Source of the DNA: Desulfomicrobium sp. ZS1
GTDB lineage: Bacteria; Desulfobacterota; Desulfovibrionia; Desulfovibrionales; Desulfomicrobiaceae
Assembly (NCBI RefSeq): GCF_024204645.1
Contig: NZ_CP100351.1
Location: forward strand, 310,001-374,000
DNA: 64,000 bases
Direction of reading: 5' to 3'
Below, in pieces: positions 43,222-52,825 of this stretch. The position numbers and the translations under genes were made by a program. The number at the start of each line of letters is the position of its first letter. Position 1 is the first letter of the stretch. The notes under the pieces were generated by a model, which was given only the letters and a program-made list of their open reading frames with translations, made no database searches and had not been told where the DNA came from.

Positions 43222-44211
43222 TTAGAAGCCCAGGCCCTTGGCCAGTGCCTTTCCACCTGCGAAGAGCAGCACGCCGATGACCATGTAGCGGATGAATGTG
43301 GGCTTGGCGATGGCCAGCAGACGCACACCAACGAAAGAGCCCATCATCAGACCCACGATGGAGGGTATGGCCATGAGCGGGATGACGCAGCCCTGGTTCA
43401 GATAAACCCAGGCGGCGGAGGTATCGGTGATGGAGAGCAGAAATTTACTGGTACCGACGGCGACCTTGAGCGGCGCGCCCATGAGCAGGTTCAGGACGGG
43501 AACGTTTGCCCAGCCCGCGCCAAGTCCGAACATGCCGGCCATGATGCCGATGACGATGAAGAGCAAGAGGCCCATGATGGTGCGGTGGGTTTTCCACTCC
43601 ACGATTTCGCCGGTGGCGGGCTCGATGTAGGCGCCTTGCATTCCAAGGGCCATACTCAGGGCATCCTGCTTGGTGACGACGGGGCGGGCCGTGTTCTTGG
43701 AGAGCAGGAGCAGGATGGCGATACCCATGATGGTGCCGCCCAGACAGATTTGGATTATGTGGTTCGGCAGCGCGAGTCCAAGGAAGGCGCCGAGGATGGC
43801 GCAGCTGGAGGCTATGAGCGCAACGGGCAGTGCCAGGCGCAGACTGGCCAGGTTGCGTTTCAGCAAGCCGGGTCCGGCGGCCAGGGCTCCGGCCAGGGCC
43901 ACGAGCAGTCCCGTGCCGCGCACAAAGTCAAGGTGGAAGGGGAAAAATCCGCTGACCAGCGGTACGTAGAGCACGCCGCCGCCAACACCGGCAAGGACCG
44001 CGATGATGCCAAGTATAAAACAGAAAAACAGCAAGATGACAGGCCAGGCCCACCAGGGCAGGACTGAAGATGTACCCGTGGCTTCCGCCAGCTGTTTGGC
44101 CGCTTCATCCGCGATTTCAGGGTTATTGCTTGCCCAAGCCAAAGTGACCAACAGGAGTGCGCACAATGCGGCCCCTCCCAGAATTCGCATCCACTTCGTG
44201 TTCAGTTTCAT
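43222..44211 (-). CDS. TauE/SafE-family permease (sulfite/sulfonate export type)
   Basis: A 329-aa protein. An N-terminal signal-like helix (WMRILGGAALCALLLVTLAWA) and a short periplasmic stretch precede the duplicated TauE/SafE fold; repeats begin ILGIIAVLAGVGGGVLYVPLV and IMAGMFGLGAGWANVPVLN, both holding the typical G-x-G-G-G pattern. ATG 44211 is used since the 79-codon extension crosses the promoter region. Family members move sulfite, sulfoacetate, taurine or thiosulfate-type anions. First gene of the sigma-54-driven operon down to 36465. Confidence 0.88.
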   Translation of the reverse strand: MKLNTKWMRILGGAALCALLLVTLAWASNNPEIADEAAKQLAEATGTSSVLPWWAWPVILLFFCFILGIIAVLAGVGGGVLYVPLVSGFFPFHLDFVRGTGLLVALAGALAAGPGLLKRNLASLRLALPVALIASSCAILGAFLGLALPNHIIQICLGGTIMGIAILLLLSKNTARPVVTKQDALSMALGMQGAYIEPATGEIVEWKTHRTIMGLLLFIVIGIMAGMFGLGAGWANVPVLNLLMGAPLKVAVGTSKFLLSITDTSAAWVYLNQGCVIPLMAIPSIVGLMMGSFVGVRLLAIAKPTFIRYMVIGVLLFAGGKALAKGLGF

Positions 44212-44295
44212 TCCTGTTTCGCTCCCGTTTACACGTTCTTCAAGAATTGATTGATGTTGCACCGCGATGCACAACGCATCCGAACTCCAGAATAG

Positions 44296-44310
44296 GCAAA
44301 GACTATGCCA
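44296..44310 (-). promoter_or_regulatory. Sigma-54 promoter of the TauE/phosphorelay operon
   Basis: On the minus strand TGGCATAGTCTTTGC matches TGGCAYR-N4-TTGC exactly, with GG and GC ten bases apart. It lies 84 bases upstream of the permease start. Confidence 0.85.
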
Positions 44311-44363
44311 GCACGAAAATACAGGCGGGCCCTTTGTTGACGTACCTGAGCACAGAGAGTAAA

Positions 44364-44379
44364 CGGCAAAATATTGCCG
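44364..44379. promoter_or_regulatory. Palindromic activator site A
   Basis: CGGCAAAATATTGCCG: arms CGGCAA and TTGCCG. It stands about 55-70 bases upstream of the -24 box at 44310 and 107 bases before the divergent activator gene, an enhancer position. A near-identical site lies at 45678-45693. Confidence 0.75.
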
Positions 44380-44486
44380 CAAGCGGCAGGATTGTGCCTT
44401 TTTTCTCAAGTTCAGACCCCACAGGGCAAAATGCCGGTGCGTAGACATTCAGCTTTTCGCCGAAAGCATGGAGTAGGATTCAAGCA

Positions 44487-45563
44487 ATGGAATTTCAGCC
44501 GGATATTGTCAAACAGCCCAAAAGTGGAGGGCGTACGCGGTCCGGCAAGAAATTGCCGGAAGCTCCGCTGGATTCCGGAGTGGAGATTCTGGAGCTGGGA
44601 ACAGAGGACGGTCTGGGAAAGTTTGTCATCCAGTCCCGGACCATGCGCGACCTTTATCGCCTGGCTACGCAGGTTGCCGGGTCCGATGCGACCATCCTGG
44701 TCTACGGCGAATCGGGTACGGGCAAGGAGCTTTTCGCCCGCCTCGTGCACCAGCTTTCGGGTCGCAGGGCAAAGCCTTTCATCCCGGTCAATTGCGGGGT
44801 GCTCAAGGGCGAGCTCTTCGCCGACAAATTCTTCGGGCATGAGGCCGGAGCCTTCACCGGAGCCCAGCGTCAGCGTAAGGGCAGCTTTGAGCTGGCCGCC
44901 GATGGGACCCTGTTTCTGGATGAAGTGGGCGAGATTCCGCCCCCCAATCAGGTCGATTTTCTGCGTGTACTGGAAGAGAAGACCTTCCGTCGCCTGGGCG
45001 GGGAGAAGACCCAGCCCTTTGATGCACGCATCGTGGCCGCCACCAACCGGGTGCTGCACAAGATGGTCACTGTGGGGGAATTCAGGGCCGACCTGTATTA
45101 TCGCCTGAATGTCATTCCGGTAACCCTTCCGCCCCTGCGTGAGCGCATCGACGACATTCCTCCTCTGGCCGAATATTTTCTGGCCATGTACCGGCATCGC
45201 TATCATAAGCCTGATGTACGTCTGGCCCCGGCCACGCTTGAGACCTTGTGCGGGTATTCCTGGCCGGGCAATGTGCGCGAGCTGCGTAACCTGACGGAAC
45301 GGCTGGTCCTGCTTTGCGCCGAACCTCTGATCGAACCCGCCCACCTGCCCCTGGAGATGCGTTTGGCCACGGGCTTGCCCGCCACGGAATGCGGTCAGAA
45401 CGTCATGACCCTGGAAGCGGCCGTGCGCCAGGCCGAAGTCGCGGCCATTGTCAGAGGCTGGGCCGAAGCCGGGGGCAGCAAGGCCAAATTGGCCGAGATT
45501 CTGGCCGTGAGCCCTCGTACTCTGCGCTATAAATTGGCTGAATACGATTTGAAGCTGACCTGA
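44487..45563 (+). CDS. Sigma-54 activator without sensor domain
   Basis: A 358-aa enhancer-binding protein. The first 45 residues show no receiver or PAS domain; the AAA+ domain follows with GESGTGKE, intact EAGAFTGAQ and DEVGEIPP, then a Fis HTH (GGSKAKLAEILAVSPRTLRYKL). Lacking its own sensor, it may be regulated by partner proteins, as for PspF-type activators; the phosphorelay proteins or the AAA+-like protein at 41531 are candidates. It is divergent from the TauE operon, with matching palindromes on both sides of the gene. Confidence 0.9.
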   Translation: MEFQPDIVKQPKSGGRTRSGKKLPEAPLDSGVEILELGTEDGLGKFVIQSRTMRDLYRLATQVAGSDATILVYGESGTGKELFARLVHQLSGRRAKPFIPVNCGVLKGELFADKFFGHEAGAFTGAQRQRKGSFELAADGTLFLDEVGEIPPPNQVDFLRVLEEKTFRRLGGEKTQPFDARIVAATNRVLHKMVTVGEFRADLYYRLNVIPVTLPPLRERIDDIPPLAEYFLAMYRHRYHKPDVRLAPATLETLCGYSWPGNVRELRNLTERLVLLCAEPLIEPAHLPLEMRLATGLPATECGQNVMTLEAAVRQAEVAAIVRGWAEAGGSKAKLAEILAVSPRTLRYKLAEYDLKLT

Positions 45564-45674
45564 TTTTTTTCCTGCCTTTCATCCTCGCGTTTCATTCTTT
45601 CGTGTCGAATGTAGATTATCATTTAATTCAGCTAAGTATTGGTATTTCACCGCTGTGCTGCGGAAAGAATATGA

Positions 45675-45696
45675 AAGCGGCAAAATTTTGCCGCTT
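45675..45696. promoter_or_regulatory. Palindromic activator site B
   Basis: A perfect 22-base palindrome: AAGCGGCAAAA (45675-45685) mirrors TTTTGCCGCTT. Its core CGGCAAAATTTTGCCG differs from site A by one base. It lies 165 bases upstream of the tonB-like gene. A weak -24/-12 candidate (CGGCGTTTGCGTGGC, starting near 45718) follows. The gap 45564-45860 otherwise holds no gene. Confidence 0.75.
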
Positions 45697-45860
45697 GGTC
45701 TGTCTGTCGAGCATTGTCGGCGTTTGCGTGGCCATGGGTCCTGCTTGAGACACTATAGTTCGGATCATGCGTCTCAAATAACACGTTTTCTGTATTGATT
45801 ACACAAAAGGATTGAGTTAGAGCGAAGGCCGTTTCAAAAATTTTACTACGTATTGAATTC

Positions 45861-46871
45861 ATGAGCAATTTTGTCGGAATTTCAGATCCGGTCTGTCTTG
45901 AATTGCCTGAACTGGGACTCTGCGGGGGCGGTTGTTCCACGCCCGTGGCGCTGGCGGACGGCTGCGTCCGCCGCCGACGACCTTCGATTGCGGTGCCATG
46001 CGTGAGTCTTGCGGCTGCGATGCACGGGGCGCTTGTTTTCCTGGCTCTGACTATGGCCATGGGCGTGAGCGCGCCCCGTCCGGTGATCGGTATTTCCCTG
46101 CTGCCTGCCCTGGGTCCAGGGATGATGGATCGCGGAGGCGACCGGTCCGGGTCTTCCCTGGGGCGGGTGGCGGCTGAGAGTCCTGAGCAGGCCCGGCACG
46201 TGGAGCCCGTTGCAACTACGGATGTTGTTCAGAAATCGCCCAGGTCCGCACCGGCGGTTAAAAAAAACGCCACGGTCCGGGTTGCGCCAGAAAAATCTCG
46301 CGGCGGGTCTGTTGCCGCCACCCGGCCCCGTATAAAGCCGCGCGAGCCCATGCCGCAGACGCTGCCTTCGGTCGTGAGCGTGCCGGCTTCGCTTGGGCAG
46401 GACCAGATTTTCAGCAATGAAGATCCGGGCGCCGAAGGGAAGACATCGGTCGCAGACCTTCAAGCCCGGCACGCCGAATCAACAGGTGCCGCCGATGCCC
46501 TGTCGCATGGCGCATCCGGCACGTCCGACGTCATGGGAGGACAGGGCTGTGCTGGATCCGGGGTTGGTGGAGGTCCGATTGGAGCGTCTTTCGGCGATGC
46601 CGATGGGCCCAGCTTCGTGCAGCGAGTCATGCCCCGATATCCGGAGCTTGCACGGCGCAGGGGACGGGAGGGGCTGGTGCTGCTGCGTCTTGTTATCGGC
46701 CCTGGCGGAGAGTTGCGCGACGCCCAGGTCGTCGAGGGTGGCGGGCATGGCTTTGACGAAGCGGCCCTGGCCGCGGTCAGGGCTTCCGTCTATGCCCCGG
46801 CCATGCGGGAAGGCCGGGGCGTGGAGTGCGCCGCCTTGTTTCCCATCCGTTTCACCCTGAAGGGGAGTTGA
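45861..46871 (+). CDS. TonB-family energy transducer
   Basis: A 336-aa protein. A 45-residue cytosolic lead with a Cys group (LCGGGCSTPV) precedes one TM helix (about 46-68, VSLAAAMHGALVFLALTMAMGV). A long Pro/Lys/Ala linker spans the periplasm and the C-terminal TonB domain (about 250-335) reads MPRYPELARRRGREGLVLLRLVIGPGGEL and DEAALAAVRASVYAPA. No exbB/exbD is nearby. First gene of the uptake operon ending with the outer-membrane receptor. Confidence 0.88.
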   Translation: MSNFVGISDPVCLELPELGLCGGGCSTPVALADGCVRRRRPSIAVPCVSLAAAMHGALVFLALTMAMGVSAPRPVIGISLLPALGPGMMDRGGDRSGSSLGRVAAESPEQARHVEPVATTDVVQKSPRSAPAVKKNATVRVAPEKSRGGSVAATRPRIKPREPMPQTLPSVVSVPASLGQDQIFSNEDPGAEGKTSVADLQARHAESTGAADALSHGASGTSDVMGGQGCAGSGVGGGPIGASFGDADGPSFVQRVMPRYPELARRRGREGLVLLRLVIGPGGELRDAQVVEGGGHGFDEAALAAVRASVYAPAMREGRGVECAALFPIRFTLKGS

Positions 46872-46917
46872 TTTTTTGAAACACCCCGCTTGAAACATTC
46901 AACCACTCGAGATTCTG

Positions 46918-48015
46918 ATGCTTCTTCGTGCTCTATTTTCGGTCGTGTTTGTTCTTTTCATGTCGCCTTGCGTTTCGGCCCTGACCGTGACCGACGCCCT
47001 GGGCCGCGTGCATGAACTGCCTGACGACGTATCGCGCGTCATCTGTTCCGGTTCGGGTTGCCTGCGCCTTTTGACCTATTTGCAGGCCCAGGATCTGGCC
47101 GTGGCCGTGGACGACATCGAATCCAAGCGCAACCGGTTCGATTCGCGCCCCTACGCCATGGCCAACCCGCAGTTCAGGACCATGCCGATCTTCGGGCAGT
47201 TCCGGGGGCAGGACAATCCGGAGCTGATTCTGACGCTTGATCCGCAGCCACAGGTCATTTTCAAGACCTATGCGACCATGGGACATGATCCGGTGGAATT
47301 GCAGAACAAGACCGGCATTCCCGTGGTCGTGCTCGACGCCGGGGATCTGGGCGGGCGACGCGACAGGTTTTATGCGGCCCTGCGGCTCATGGGCCGGATC
47401 GTGGGCAGGACGGAACGGGCCGAGAGCCTGGTGGCCTATTTCGATGCGGCCATCGCCGACCTTGCGCGGCGCACGAGGGATATTGACGAATCCAAGCGGC
47501 CCACGGCCTACATCGGAGGCGTGGCCTACAAGGGGCCTCACGGTTTTCAGTCCACGGAGCCGACGTATCCGCCCTTTGCGTTCGTGCAAGCCCGCAACAT
47601 GGCCCGCGAAGAGGGCGGAGCGGGCAGGGACCTCAGCAACACCGATGTGGCCAAGGAGAAAATCGTGGTCTGGGATCCGGACCATCTGTTCCTGGATCTC
47701 TCCACGCTGCAGATGGGCGAGGAGGCCGGCGGCCTGCACGAACTGCGCACCGACCCAGCCTACGCGACCCTTTCGGCCGTGCAGGAGGGCCGGGTTTACG
47801 GGGTGCTGCCTTACAACTGGTACTCCCAGAACTTCGAGTCCATCCTGGCCGACGCCTATTTCGTGGGCAAGATTCTCTACCCGGAGCGTTTCGCGGACAT
47901 CGATCCCAAAGCCAAGGCCGACGAGATCTATTCCTTTGTGGTCGGCAAGCCCATGTTCACTGAGATGAACCGGACCTTTTCCGATCTGGCCTTCATCCGG
48001 GTGCCGGTGCGCTGA
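46918..48015 (+). CDS. Periplasmic metal-chelate binding protein (FecB/BtuF type)
   Basis: A 365-aa exported protein; signal peptide MLLRALFSVVFVLFMSPCVSA. The type-III binding-protein fold starts LTVTDALGRVHELPDDVSRVICSGSGCLRLLTYL, with NPELILTLDPQPQVIFKTYATMG and VVWDPDHLFLDL. These subgroups bind ferric, cobamide or other metal chelates. The stop overlaps the permease start (TGATG). A Cys or Met ligand preference cannot be assigned, so the metal stays open. Confidence 0.85.
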   Translation: MLLRALFSVVFVLFMSPCVSALTVTDALGRVHELPDDVSRVICSGSGCLRLLTYLQAQDLAVAVDDIESKRNRFDSRPYAMANPQFRTMPIFGQFRGQDNPELILTLDPQPQVIFKTYATMGHDPVELQNKTGIPVVVLDAGDLGGRRDRFYAALRLMGRIVGRTERAESLVAYFDAAIADLARRTRDIDESKRPTAYIGGVAYKGPHGFQSTEPTYPPFAFVQARNMAREEGGAGRDLSNTDVAKEKIVVWDPDHLFLDLSTLQMGEEAGGLHELRTDPAYATLSAVQEGRVYGVLPYNWYSQNFESILADAYFVGKILYPERFADIDPKAKADEIYSFVVGKPMFTEMNRTFSDLAFIRVPVR

Positions 48016-49082
48016 TGCATTCCGATCACGGCAACGTGCCCGAGGAGTACAAACGCTATCTGGCCTGGAAGACCCTGGTCGTGGTGCTGTGCGCTCTTGC
48101 CCTGGCTGCGGCCCTGCTCATGTCCCTGTGCGTCGGCGCGGCGGGTCTGCCCCTGGGTGATGTGCTTTCAAGCCTCCTGGGCCAAGACTCAACCCCCCGC
48201 ATCGACGCCATCGTGCGCGGCATCCGCCTGCCCCAGTCCCTGGCGGCCATGGTCGCGGGCGGCGGGCTGGCCGTGGCCGGGGCGGTCATGCAGGCCATTC
48301 TGCGCAACCCTCTGGGTTCTCCCTTTACCTTGGGCATTTCTCACGCCGCCGCCTTCGGCGCGGCCTTTTCGGTCATGGTTCTGGACTCGGGACTGATGAC
48401 CTCGGGCCGGACGGCCGTGACCATCACCAGCCCTTATGTGACCACCGCCTCGGCCTTTTTGTGCAGCCTCGTCGCTTCCGGGATCATCATCGCCATTTCC
48501 CGCACGCGCGGTACCCGGCCCGAAACCATGGTGCTGGCCGGAGTGGCCCTGGGCGCGCTCTTCACCGCCGGGACCATGTTCCTGCAGTATTTCGCCACGG
48601 ACGTGCAGCTTTCCGCCATGGTTTTCTGGACTTTTGGGGACACGTCCCGCGCCAGCTGGGCGGAGCTTGGGCTCATGACTCTGGTTACGCTTGGCGGCAC
48701 GCTCTATTTTCTGGCCAACAGCTGGAACTACAACGCCATCGATGCCGGGGACGAGACAGCCAAGAGTCTGGGGGTGCGGGTCGAACGGGTGCGCATCGTA
48801 GGCATGCTGCTCTCCAGCCTGGTCACGGCTGTGCTCATCGCCTTCCTGGGCATCATCGGCTTTGTGGGGCTGGTGGTGCCGCACATGTTCCGGCGCGTCA
48901 TCGGTGCGGATCACCGTTTTTTGCTGCCCGCGTCGCTGGTGGGCGGGGCGCTGTTGCTGCTGCTCTCCGACACGGCGGCACGTTTGGTCATGGCCCCGCA
49001 CCTTTTGCCCGTCTCCGTGCTGACAGCCTTTTTGGGGGCTCCGACCTTTCTTTATCTCATCGTCAGGGGGCGGCGCTCATGA
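48015..49082 (+). CDS. FecCD-type ABC permease
   Basis: A 355-aa polytopic permease: RGIRLPQSLAAMVAGGGLAVAGAVMQAILRNPLGSPFTLGISHAAAFGA is the FecCD hallmark, followed by GDTSRASWAE and GIIGFVGLVVPHMFR near the coupling loop. It overlaps the genes on both sides (TGATG and ATGA), so all are translated together. Confidence 0.93.
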   Translation: MHSDHGNVPEEYKRYLAWKTLVVVLCALALAAALLMSLCVGAAGLPLGDVLSSLLGQDSTPRIDAIVRGIRLPQSLAAMVAGGGLAVAGAVMQAILRNPLGSPFTLGISHAAAFGAAFSVMVLDSGLMTSGRTAVTITSPYVTTASAFLCSLVASGIIIAISRTRGTRPETMVLAGVALGALFTAGTMFLQYFATDVQLSAMVFWTFGDTSRASWAELGLMTLVTLGGTLYFLANSWNYNAIDAGDETAKSLGVRVERVRIVGMLLSSLVTAVLIAFLGIIGFVGLVVPHMFRRVIGADHRFLLPASLVGGALLLLLSDTAARLVMAPHLLPVSVLTAFLGAPTFLYLIVRGRRS

Positions 49083-49834
49083 TGCTTTCGGTCTGCGGGG
49101 TGCACTTCACCTACAACAGCCATCCGCTCCTGCGGAACATCGATTTCAGCCTCGAACGCGGTGAGCTGCTGGCCATCCTCGGTCCCAACGGTGTGGGCAA
49201 GACCACCTTGCTCAAATGTATGAACGCCATTCTGCGCCCGGCTTCGGGCGCGATTCTGGTGGAGGAGCGCGACATCCTTTCGCTTGCGCCCTCGGACATC
49301 GCCCGCGACATCGGCTATGTTTCCCAGAAGAACGAAGCCTCCCGCCTGACGGTCTTTGACGCCGTGCTCATGGGCCGCACCCCGCATATCCGCTGGCGCA
49401 TGAGCGAAGACGACCTGCGCAAGACCGACGCCATTTTGCATACCATGGACCTGTGCTCCATGGCCATGCGCCACATCGACACCTTGAGCGGCGGCGAGCT
49501 GCAGAAAGTCTGCATCGCGCGCGCTCTGGTGCAGGAGCCTTCGCTCCTTTTGCTCGACGAGCCCACCAGCGCCCTGGACCTCAAGAATCAGGTCGAGATC
49601 ATGAATCTTGTCCGCCGGGTGGTGGACGAGCACCGCATCGCCGCGGTCATGAGCATGCACGATCTGAACATGGCCCTGCGCCATGCCGACAAGACCATCT
49701 TCCTGAAGGATGGAGACATTCACGCCATGGGCACGCCAGGCTGCGTGACCCCGGAGATCATCCACGAAGTCTACGGCCTGCCGGTGCACATCCATCGCAT
49801 TGACGGCCGTTCCATAGTCATCCCTCAAAACTGA
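49079..49834 (+). CDS. FecE-type ABC ATPase
   Basis: A 251-aa ATPase: Walker A GPNGVGKTT, signature TLSGGELQKVCIARALVQEPSLLLLDEPTSALDLKNQ and H-loop SMHDLNMALRHAD. ATG 49079 overlaps the permease stop; the upstream part of the open frame is inside the permease gene. Completes the importer. Confidence 0.93.
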   Translation: MMLSVCGVHFTYNSHPLLRNIDFSLERGELLAILGPNGVGKTTLLKCMNAILRPASGAILVEERDILSLAPSDIARDIGYVSQKNEASRLTVFDAVLMGRTPHIRWRMSEDDLRKTDAILHTMDLCSMAMRHIDTLSGGELQKVCIARALVQEPSLLLLDEPTSALDLKNQVEIMNLVRRVVDEHRIAAVMSMHDLNMALRHADKTIFLKDGDIHAMGTPGCVTPEIIHEVYGLPVHIHRIDGRSIVIPQN

Positions 49835-49848
49835 AAAAGGAGTAGTGC

Positions 49849-50460
49849 ATGCCCTGCCGGATTTCACCTGAACAGATAGACGCGACCATCGCCTTTCACG
49901 GCCACAGCTGCCCGGGGCTGGCCATCGGCATCCGTGCCGCTGAGCTGGCCCTGCGCGAGCTGGACAACCCCAAAGACACGGAGATCGTGGCCGTGGTCGA
50001 GACGGACATGTGCGGTGTGGACGCCTTGCAGTTTTTGCTGGGTACGACCATGGGCAAGGGAAATCTGATCCACCGCGATCACGGCAAGATGGCCTTTTCC
50101 TTTTTCCGCCGCGAGACGGGTCGGGGCGTGAGAGCCTTGCTTAATCCTGACTCTCGCCGGGGCATGGACGACGAGATGGCCGAATTGATGAAGAAGACCG
50201 GCAGTGGCAAGGCCACCGAAGCGGAAAAAATGCGGATGGAAGAACTTCGCGCCAGCCTGCAGCACCGTTTCATGACCCTTCCATTGGACGAGATGTTTCA
50301 GGTGACAAAGATGGACCAGGGCGCGCCCAGGCCCCCCCGGATACTGCAGAGCATGGTCTGCGAGCATTGCGGCGAGACGACCATGGAGTCGCGTACCCGC
50401 CGTTTTGCCGGGCAGACGCTGTGCATTCCGTGTTTTCAGATGGTTGAGCAGAAAATATAG
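49849..50460 (+). CDS. FmdE-family protein with C-terminal zinc ribbon
   Basis: A 203-aa protein. The FmdE domain has FHGHSCPGLAIGIRAAELAL (H17, H19, C21), VETDMCGVDALQ (C54) and GTTMGKGNL, a probable metal/ligand pocket. The C-terminus holds a zinc ribbon (C170, C173, C191, C194). FmdE was named from the formylmethanofuran dehydrogenase cluster of methanogens, but its reaction is not established. It sits 14 bases after the importer ATPase and is the last gene before the operon terminator, so it may process the imported metal or chelate. Confidence 0.88.
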   Translation: MPCRISPEQIDATIAFHGHSCPGLAIGIRAAELALRELDNPKDTEIVAVVETDMCGVDALQFLLGTTMGKGNLIHRDHGKMAFSFFRRETGRGVRALLNPDSRRGMDDEMAELMKKTGSGKATEAEKMRMEELRASLQHRFMTLPLDEMFQVTKMDQGAPRPPRILQSMVCEHCGETTMESRTRRFAGQTLCIPCFQMVEQKI

Positions 50461-50468
50461 TTTTTGAT

Positions 50469-50495
50469 GGCGGGTCTTTCAGATCCGCCTTTTTT
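50469..50495 (+). terminator. Intrinsic terminator after the FmdE-family gene
   Basis: GGCGGGTC (50469-50476) pairs with GATCCGCC (50482-50489) including one G-T pair, then a run of six T residues. Confidence 0.88.
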
Positions 50496-50632
50496 AGGTT
50501 TTCCAGCAGGCACGCTTTATCGTCGGATGAGGTATGCTTTGTCGTGATATTGTTGCGCCTATGAGTAGCACGATTTTGGAAATAATGCTTTGCGCGTTAT
50601 ATTTTAAACTACATTTTCTAATGGAGGTGTTC

Positions 50633-52825
50633 ATGGGGAAGAGAATTGTGATTTTGGTTTGGATGCTGATTTTTATGGCGTCCAGTGCCCGAGGCGCCGG
50701 ACCGGAGGTCCAATTGGAGGAGATGACCGTGGTCGGTGAAAAGCTGGTTACGCCTACCCGTCAGACCAACGAACAGGTCTACACCGGGACGGAAATTACC
50801 AGAAGTGGGCTTGATCTGCCAGGCGCCAGGGCTGAGACCAGCGTCTACGAGGCCATGGATTCCTTGCCTGGGGTGCAGGTTGAAAGCGTTGACGCATCGG
50901 GTCTGGCAGTAGAGCAGACGAACACGCGCGTGCGCGGCGTGCGGGGATTTCTGGGGTCCATGACCGTGGAAGGCGTGCCCAACTGGGGCGGCAACCCCAT
51001 GGGACCGCGCGAGTATCTCTATGACATGGAGAATTTTGAGAGCATCGCCGTGTACAAGGGCGCGATTCCCGCCGGTCTGGGCACTGGCGTGGGGGCCAGG
51101 GGCGGAGCAATCGAGTTGCGTCCGCGCTGGCCCGAAAAGGATCCGGGGATGGATTTGAACTTCGCCATTGGTTCAAACGCCTACAGCCGGGCGCATTCAC
51201 GGGTCGATACCGGGAGCGTGGGACCGCTTGACACGGCATTCAGCGCATCGGCCTCCTGGACCGAGGCCGAAAAATGGAAAGGGCCTGGAGATCTGGGGCC
51301 GCGTTTCAACACTAATTTCATGATCGAGCAGCCGTATCACGGGGAGGACGCCGTGAGGGTCTGGTTCAATTACAACGAGATCGAACAGGACCTTTACCGT
51401 GCCCTTGGCTATGCCGAAGTGCAGGATCTGCATGGCAATTACCGAAAGGATTTCAACGAAACGCTAACCGGAGTCAAGAATCAGGATATTTATCATTACA
51501 AGAACAATCGTTCCGAACATTCTAACGCGGACATCCTGGCCGTGGTGCCTTTCACGTTCAACGAGATGTTCAAAGCCACGCTCAAGCCCTATTATTCACG
51601 GGAAGACGCGGAGATATACCAGGGTGTTGTCTCGCAGGGCGGGATTGTGCAGAAGCGCATCCGCGACATCGAACGCCTGGGCCTGCTTTCGCAACTGGAC
51701 ATCGACATGGACGTGGTGCGGTTGTCCGTGGGGCATCTGTTCGAGTCCGTGGACATGCAGATCAATACGGATATTCATGATCCCAGGACCGGCGCTTTCG
51801 TGAAGCACAGTATCCAGACCGAGAATGACGGCAACGGCTACGTGAACAGTCCGTTCGCCACTCTGGCCGGAACCGTCGGAGCCTTCGATTGGCAGGCGGG
51901 ACTCAAGTATTTTCGCTACGACGAGCCCGCCAGCAAGGGGTACGTTCCCGTGGGTGGCGTTTCGACCGAGGCTGTGGATTTGGCGCGAGATTCGCGCGTG
52001 TACGACATCTGGCTGCCCAGCGTGGGCGTGAGCTACGCGGTCAACGACATGTTCCAGCCTTACGCCAGTTACGGCCGCAGTCACATCAGACCCTACTCGT
52101 ACGTGCCGCTGATCAACCTGTACAACGCCAACCAGCCGGCATTTCAGGCTGCGGGAGTGACCCTGCAAGAGATGTTCGATGGATACGACATCGAGACTTC
52201 AGACAATTTTGAAATGGGGCTGCGTATCACCCATGAACGCTTCGATATCACCCCGGCGATTTTTTATTCCAAGCATGACAACCTGTTGACCACTGTCTAC
52301 GATCCACGCGTGGATCTGAGCTACGCGCAGAACGTGGGCAAAGCCACCGGTTATGGACTGGAGGTGGAAGGCAACTTCTATCTGACGCAGTCGGTGACCC
52401 TCTTCGTCAACCCGACCTATACCCGTCTGACTTACGATGATGACCTGTCCTACCAGGGCAATACGCTCAAAACCAGTGGCGAGCAGGTTGTCGACACTCC
52501 GGAGTGGATGGTCAAAACCGGCCTGGTCTGGAAAGTCGGAGACGTGGAGTTTATTCCCTCCGTGCGTTACATGGGTGAGCGATACGGGGATGTGGAGCAC
52601 AATGAGAAGATCGACAGCTATATGGTCGCGGATCTGGGCGTGAATTATGTCAATCGCGACGTGACGTTCGCTGAAGCCCTGAAGCTTTCGCTTAACCTCT
52701 ACAACCTGTTCGACGCCGAGTACGTGTCCAGAATCAACGCCTCCGACGATACCCGCGCGGGTAGCGCCTCGTATTACGTAGGCGCGCCTTTCACGGCGGT
52801 GTTCAGCGTAGGTCTGGAATTCTGA
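50633..52825 (+). CDS. TonB-dependent outer-membrane receptor
   Basis: A 730-aa receptor. The signal peptide (MGKRIVILVWMLIFMASSARGA) is followed by a TonB-box-like EEMTVVGEKL, a plug domain (about 60-190; SVYEAMDSLPGVQVESVD, VRGVRGFLGSMTVEGVP) and a 22-strand barrel ending FTAVFSVGLEF with terminal Phe, the outer-membrane insertion signal. ATG 50633 has GGAGG five bases upstream; the earlier in-frame ATG at 50534 is rejected. It is separated from the FmdE gene by a terminator, but with tonB and the importer forms a complete route for a chelated metal or similar ligand. Confidence 0.93.
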   Translation: MGKRIVILVWMLIFMASSARGAGPEVQLEEMTVVGEKLVTPTRQTNEQVYTGTEITRSGLDLPGARAETSVYEAMDSLPGVQVESVDASGLAVEQTNTRVRGVRGFLGSMTVEGVPNWGGNPMGPREYLYDMENFESIAVYKGAIPAGLGTGVGARGGAIELRPRWPEKDPGMDLNFAIGSNAYSRAHSRVDTGSVGPLDTAFSASASWTEAEKWKGPGDLGPRFNTNFMIEQPYHGEDAVRVWFNYNEIEQDLYRALGYAEVQDLHGNYRKDFNETLTGVKNQDIYHYKNNRSEHSNADILAVVPFTFNEMFKATLKPYYSREDAEIYQGVVSQGGIVQKRIRDIERLGLLSQLDIDMDVVRLSVGHLFESVDMQINTDIHDPRTGAFVKHSIQTENDGNGYVNSPFATLAGTVGAFDWQAGLKYFRYDEPASKGYVPVGGVSTEAVDLARDSRVYDIWLPSVGVSYAVNDMFQPYASYGRSHIRPYSYVPLINLYNANQPAFQAAGVTLQEMFDGYDIETSDNFEMGLRITHERFDITPAIFYSKHDNLLTTVYDPRVDLSYAQNVGKATGYGLEVEGNFYLTQSVTLFVNPTYTRLTYDDDLSYQGNTLKTSGEQVVDTPEWMVKTGLVWKVGDVEFIPSVRYMGERYGDVEHNEKIDSYMVADLGVNYVNRDVTFAEALKLSLNLYNLFDAEYVSRINASDDTRAGSASYYVGAPFTAVFSVGLEF

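Follow-up and report, generated by a model that had tools for sequence, protein, structure and literature searches.

Our analysis indicated that the operon running from tonB to a TonB-dependent receptor gene in Desulfomicrobium sp. ZS1 is very probably a NikR-repressed system for the uptake of nickel or a nickel chelate, a reading based on regulation and strongly supported because of the NikR boxes associated with these genes. The genes, their order, the predicted operator, the sharing of this operator with other nickel genes and the conservation of the metal ligands were all taken from the sequence, and from them we infer repression by nickel, a nickel-chelate cargo and the step performed by FmdE. 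Sulfate reducers depend on nickel hydrogenases, and free nickel is scarce in sulfidic water. With this operon they would be credited with a NikR-controlled nickel importer of the Fec type that includes a TonB-dependent step at the outer membrane, and FmdE, which is named after methanogen operons and whose function is unsettled, would gain a specific metal and a specific testable step.

Genes and layout of the operon

The first-pass annotation of the window (the whole 64-kb stretch of DNA that was analysed) had placed tonB and the genes for a periplasmic binding protein (SBP), FecC, FecE, FmdE and a receptor in series, and all six were confirmed in position and strand (Table 1). The receptor open reading frame is present and ends at 52825 as proposed, but its start at 50534 was revised, since the ATG at 50633, preceded by GGAGG, is probably the start.

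Table 1. Features of the operon and its upstream region (window coordinates)
Feature	Position	Strand	Evidence
Possible sigma-70-type promoter overlapping the operator: TTGATT (45795-45800), 16 bp, TTAGAG (45817-45822)	45795-45822	+	sequence
Predicted NikR operator ATAACAC-N13-ATTACAC	45778-45804	+	match to nikK/[NiFe]-hydrogenase pattern; kept in genus
tonB	45861-46871	+	TonB_C, E 3.8e-20
SBP (periplasmic binding protein), FecB/TM0189 class	46918-48015	+	Peripla_BP_2; 2ETV E 1.5e-80 by sequence, 2ETV also best fold match
FecCD-type permease	48015-49082	+	PF01032, E 7.9e-87
FecE-type ATPase	49079-49834	+	ABC_tran, E 7e-34; ATGA overlap with permease
FmdE, H17/H19/C21/C55 metal site and C-terminal C4 zinc ribbon (C171, C174, C192, C195)	49849-50460	+	PF02663, E 3.3e-44; zf-dskA_traR
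Terminator-like hairpin with T run, FmdE/receptor gap	50469-50495	+	sequence GGCGGGTC-TTTCA-GATCCGCC-TTTTTT
Weak NikR-like element before receptor, GTGATAT-N14-GTAGCAC, 11/14	50544-50571	+	motif match
TonB-dependent outer-membrane receptor, revised start	50633-52825	+	TonB_dep_Rec barrel, E 2.8e-36; Plug, E 2.4e-7

The closest solved relative of the SBP was TM0189 (2ETV), with 40% identity over the full length. The structure search placed the SBP in one fold group with HI1472 (3PSA, rank 17), a protein that binds molybdate, and the fold alone did not separate nickel binders from iron or molybdate binders. A literature search on the TM0189 and YiuA entries gave nothing on their ligand. Residues C43 and H208 of the SBP are nearly invariant across the binding protein family and are possible metal ligands.

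A predicted NikR operator upstream of tonB

The first-pass annotation had recognised no Fur-like box and no cobalamin riboswitch, which agreed with our scans, but it had overlooked the NikR box at 45778-45804. This box, located 56 bp before tonB, was the sole place in the window where a site with spacer 13 reached 11/14; it is imperfect (11/14), and its half-sites are in direct rather than inverted order, the same as at nikK. The pattern RTAACAC-N13-ATAACAY, with at most one mismatch, was found at three places in the 3.87-Mb genome (the nikK site, the [NiFe] hydrogenase site and 45778-45804) while its reversed control had zero matches in the genome; only the nikK and [NiFe] sites went into the pattern, but it was chosen knowing the resemblance of the window site and was not blind. 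The specificity of the pattern for these three places is a fact of the genome.

NikR, nikK, nikM and the [NiFe] and [NiFeSe] hydrogenases of this genome were assigned by family models, the NikR gene (3608520-3608939, minus strand) scoring 228.5 bits with NF003381 against a cut-off of 105. A NikR box is located before nikK-nikM (3491496). At the two hydrogenase loci (L091 and L092), a NikR-like box was observed before the [NiFe] hydrogenase small-subunit gene (875502) and a looser one before the small-subunit gene of the [NiFeSe] hydrogenase HysBA (2270273).

Alignment of genus members showed that the operator at 45778-45804 is intact or degenerate, and that it persists in the genus despite decay of tonB and the receptor gene. 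The TTGATT hexamer overlapped by the operator is present in several of these members and may act as a -35 element.

NikR boxes upstream of orthologous operons

The boxes of deltaproteobacterial regulators used in our scans, including the NikR motif, were those of PMC545781, in which a NikR-boxed hypothetical cluster of D. psychrophila (422176-177) is reported. Among the boxes scanned upstream of 43 orthologous operons, the NikR box GTGTTAC-N13-GTAACAC, in both half-site orders, was the only one in clear excess. When half-sites in either orientation were counted from -150 to +80 of the SBP open reading frame start, a site of at least 12/14 was found in 15 of the 43 loci, a density about 260-fold that found elsewhere (5 sites in 763 kb). 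The scan was repeated on non-duplicate held-out loci, fetched after the score threshold had been fixed, with a near-window of -200 to +30. A site of at least 12/14 was found in 18/33 of these, all between -64 and -92, and in none of the remaining 226 kb; these 33 loci are mostly from one genus and do not represent 33 independent events, while the first set of 43 comes from several families.

The canonical NikR box is absent from about half of the orthologous loci. A variant element, G(N)CACG(A/T)(A/T)TT...TATAC, defined post hoc from the sequences themselves, was found at the SBP promoter of ten loci and nowhere else in the 1,900 kb fetched; these ten loci are mostly devoid of the canonical box, and about ten loci carry the variant alone. 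At the level of the class, the SBP was present in 92 of 247 genomes, all 92 of which encode NikR, and in none of the nine genomes lacking NikR (Fisher p about 0.03); this co-occurrence carries little weight, since almost every genome encodes NikR and the genomes are related.

Other regulatory signals and alternative cargoes

Upstream of the 43 orthologous operons, none of the motifs for Fur, ModE, Zur, HcpR/Fnr and sigma-54 clearly exceeded shuffles at a consistent position. The Fur box gave one weak Fur-like site in the 43 regions, and the ModE box (CGGTCACG-N14-CGTGACCG) was found in 1/43 loci, equal to shuffles. Neither the window nor seven relatives yielded a cobalamin riboswitch, and Rfam at a permissive threshold gave a chance L20-leader hit only.

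Sigma-54 control of the operon, which had been suggested from an upstream palindrome, was not borne out. The palindrome is real (45677-45694), but it belongs, together with the activator, with the divergent TauE gene: with one mismatch allowed, CGGCAAAATTTTGCCG has two copies in the genome, and these flank the activator gene (44487-45563). A -24/-12 promoter (TGGCAY-N5-TTGC), conserved in six genomes, is located before TauE by the palindrome copy at 44363, while a search for TGGCAC-N5-TTGC with up to two mismatches gave no match from 45564 to 45860, a range that includes the stretch from 45695 to tonB. TauE is the most likely target of the activator, and the palindrome at 45677-45694 probably does not serve the tonB operon. 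The region from 43222 to 45694 shows a sigma-54 activator without a sensor domain beside a divergent TauE/SafE-type exporter.

Ferric-siderophore uptake, as homology-based annotation would have it, is a highly improbable function of the operon. The receptor and the SBP do fall in broad siderophore superfamilies, but every specific model was far below its cut-off, the single weak Fur-like site was all that 43 upstream regions yielded, and NikR boxes are present. The earlier proposal of a dedicated metal or chelate route, distinct from an ordinary siderophore or B12 system, was upheld.

Uptake of cobalt or corrinoids by a BtuCDF-like importer, in which cobalt chelates or cobinamide would be moved and FmdE would handle cobalt, is very unlikely. 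The best NCBIfam match of the permease was BtuC, although at 204.6 bits it was below the cut-off of 334, and a NikR-type system of Helicobacter mustelae moves both nickel and cobalt, to judge by a title cited in PMC11247825. Against cobalt are the lack of a cobalamin riboswitch noted above, the NikR boxes common to the operon and the hydrogenases, and the distance of the receptor from BtuB (31 bits with the TonB-B12 model against 600). Cobalamin uptake by BtuBCDF itself was rejected, as the BtuC, BtuD and BtuB models were not above cut-off and the riboswitch was not found.

The receptor

Comparison of the receptor with CntO- and FoxA-labelled chains showed generic similarity only, in the C-terminal barrel, and a structure search with the receptor model (mean pLDDT 72) matched all kinds of TonB-dependent receptors about equally. 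Aligned relatives preserve, in the weak element at 50544-50571, an ACGA block together with a half-site resembling GTnnnAC. Two unlinked receptor orthologs from two other genomes have their own 12/14 NikR box, about 170 to 210 bp upstream; in both cases no other site in 17 kb reached 12/14. No NikR box was found for a third unlinked ortholog (G065).

Distribution, neighbourhoods and gene decay

The SBP-FecC-FecE-FmdE unit was found in somewhat over half of 80 FmdE loci from public genomes, in hosts belonging to the Desulfovibrionales, the Desulfobulbales and others, and neighbourhood clustering of these 80 loci gave no further widely conserved neighbour. All four genes were present in each of 33 additional loci of the class. 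The coupling of FmdE to the importer that had been proposed earlier was supported: FmdE is a conserved partner gene of SBP-FecC-FecE. Nickel uptake in the Desulfobulbales, cable bacteria among them, was surveyed in 2024 without any mention of FmdE or FecB (PMC11247825), although the operon does occur in this order (L013, L016, L017 and L038, for instance).

The tonB and receptor genes are not part of the conserved unit; both are intact in the ZS1 genome and in G004 and G008. Sister genomes G001 (L106) and G012 (L108) have tonB and the receptor gene reduced to remnants or gone, and G003 (L109) has a truncated receptor gene of which only the plug and the last residues are left, with SBP-FecC-FecE-FmdE intact in all three. 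The two genes were seemingly lost together, which therefore suggests that they form a pair.

Other arrangements of FmdE were also observed. It adjoins or follows an Opp/Nik-type ABC importer in about five to seven loci (L067, L077, L081, L084 and L085 among them), and the one SBP scanned from such an importer was nearest to the NikA models, below cut-off. The Opp/Nik-type neighbourhoods favour the nickel reading. FmdE directly follows a DASS-family anion transporter in L065, L066, L072, L073, L075 and L082 (one member scanned), and such neighbours, together with other kinds of transporter, speak against that reading. In L009 (8900-10609) tonB is directly followed by FmdE with no ABC importer genes in between.

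FmdE

FmdE scored 150.6 bits with PF02663, against a curated cut-off of 22.9, and contains the HxHxC...C ligands. Of 120 relatives, 119-120 retain the four core ligands and the four cysteines of the zinc ribbon. H17, H19 and C21 of the His/Cys pocket described by the first-pass annotation were correct and the pocket is invariant, but its fourth residue is C55 and not C54. The same four core residues of the D. hafniense homolog (2GLZ) hold mixed Zn/Ni in the crystal, with zinc 2.6 times more abundant than nickel, in a protein purified over a nickel column (PMC2954224). The nickel could come from this column, and the crystal is weak evidence for nickel because of this purification. The authors of that study also noted that the majority of FmdE genes adjoin metal transporters (PMC2954224).

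Two FmdE-MoCF_biosynth fusion proteins are encoded in the ZS1 genome (L002 and L003, at 36 kb and 1.36 Mb). Their FmdE domains are without metal ligands, having FHGYPAPG where the importer type has FHGHSCPG. Molybdenum-type and importer-type FmdE can therefore be distinguished within this genome, both by fusion to a molybdopterin-binding domain and by this motif.

The uptake of a molybdate or tungstate chelate, with FmdE serving molybdenum enzymes, would suit the name of FmdE, its methanogen operons and the presence of HI1472 in the fold group of the SBP. It is nevertheless scarcely probable at all, given that the ModE box is at shuffle level (1/43) and that the molybdenum-type FmdE domains of this genome belong to the two fusion genes. 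Molybdenum, tungsten, nickel and cobalt had been listed earlier as candidates; nickel was retained and the other three do not stand as its equals, as it is nickel to which the NikR boxes point; the ModE box did not exceed chance, and the molybdenum-type FmdE domains lie in separate genes.

That FmdE is a nickel-handling step is a proposition with at best an even chance. Within the nickel reading, FmdE may not be a metallochaperone but a regulator that senses nickel, or else an enzyme, stabilised by zinc, that cleaves the chelator after import; we regard these roles as possible but doubtful. The C4 zinc ribbon and the unexplained ligand at the conserved cysteine of the T. acidophilum homolog (PMC2954224) would suit them, but the invariant HxHxC...C fits simple metal handling equally well.

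Proposed mechanism

In the nickel uptake that we propose, NikR would leave the operator overlapping the tonB promoter when nickel is scarce, and tonB-SBP-FecC-FecE-FmdE and the receptor would be made. The receptor would import a Ni(II) complex on TonB energy and the SBP would pass it to the FecC2E2 pump. In the cytoplasm, the metal would be bound by the HxHxC...C site of FmdE, which sits at the base of a cleft, and FmdE would either strip nickel from its carrier or hold it and deliver it to the maturation of nickel enzymes ([NiFe] and [NiFeSe] hydrogenases). More broadly, and tentatively, importer-linked FmdE might constitute a widespread, unrecognised cytoplasmic nickel-handling class (dechelatase or metallochaperone) that accompanies a NikR-controlled Fec-type nickel-chelate importer in the Desulfobacterota, so that these anaerobes would use a nickelophore-like ligand.

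Comparison with known systems

The FmdE of the operon shares with other members of PF02663 (2GLZ, 2GVI and 3D00) the core domain, the HxHxC...C site and the zinc ribbon, but it is linked to an importer predicted to be NikR-controlled and not to formylmethanofuran dehydrogenase. TM0189 (2ETV) of Thermotoga maritima is annotated as putative Fe(III) binding. The deltaproteobacterial NikKMLQO/NikMNQO importers have the same type of NikR operator and occur in the same genome; unlike the operon, they are of the ECF type, without an SBP or a receptor, and are encoded elsewhere (3487804-3491550). NikABCDE/Opp-type nickel importers resemble the operon in that FmdE comes immediately after them at some loci (L067, L077, L084 and L085), but they use an SBP_bac_5-type binding protein instead of one of the FecB class.

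The NikR-regulated nickel route of Helicobacter, for which PMC11247825 lists literature, comprises TonB/ExbBD, the FrpB4/FecA3/NikH receptors and the CeuE-FecDE ABC importer. The operon resembles this route by a TonB-energised outer-membrane step and a Fec-type ABC importer under predicted NikR control. It differs in that its SBP is of the TM0189 class (15% identity to nickel-bound CeuE of H. pylori, 4LS3, rank 26) and in that it contains FmdE. By analogy, the operon would work like the NikR-TonB-CeuE route of Helicobacter, built from other branches of these families and with FmdE added.
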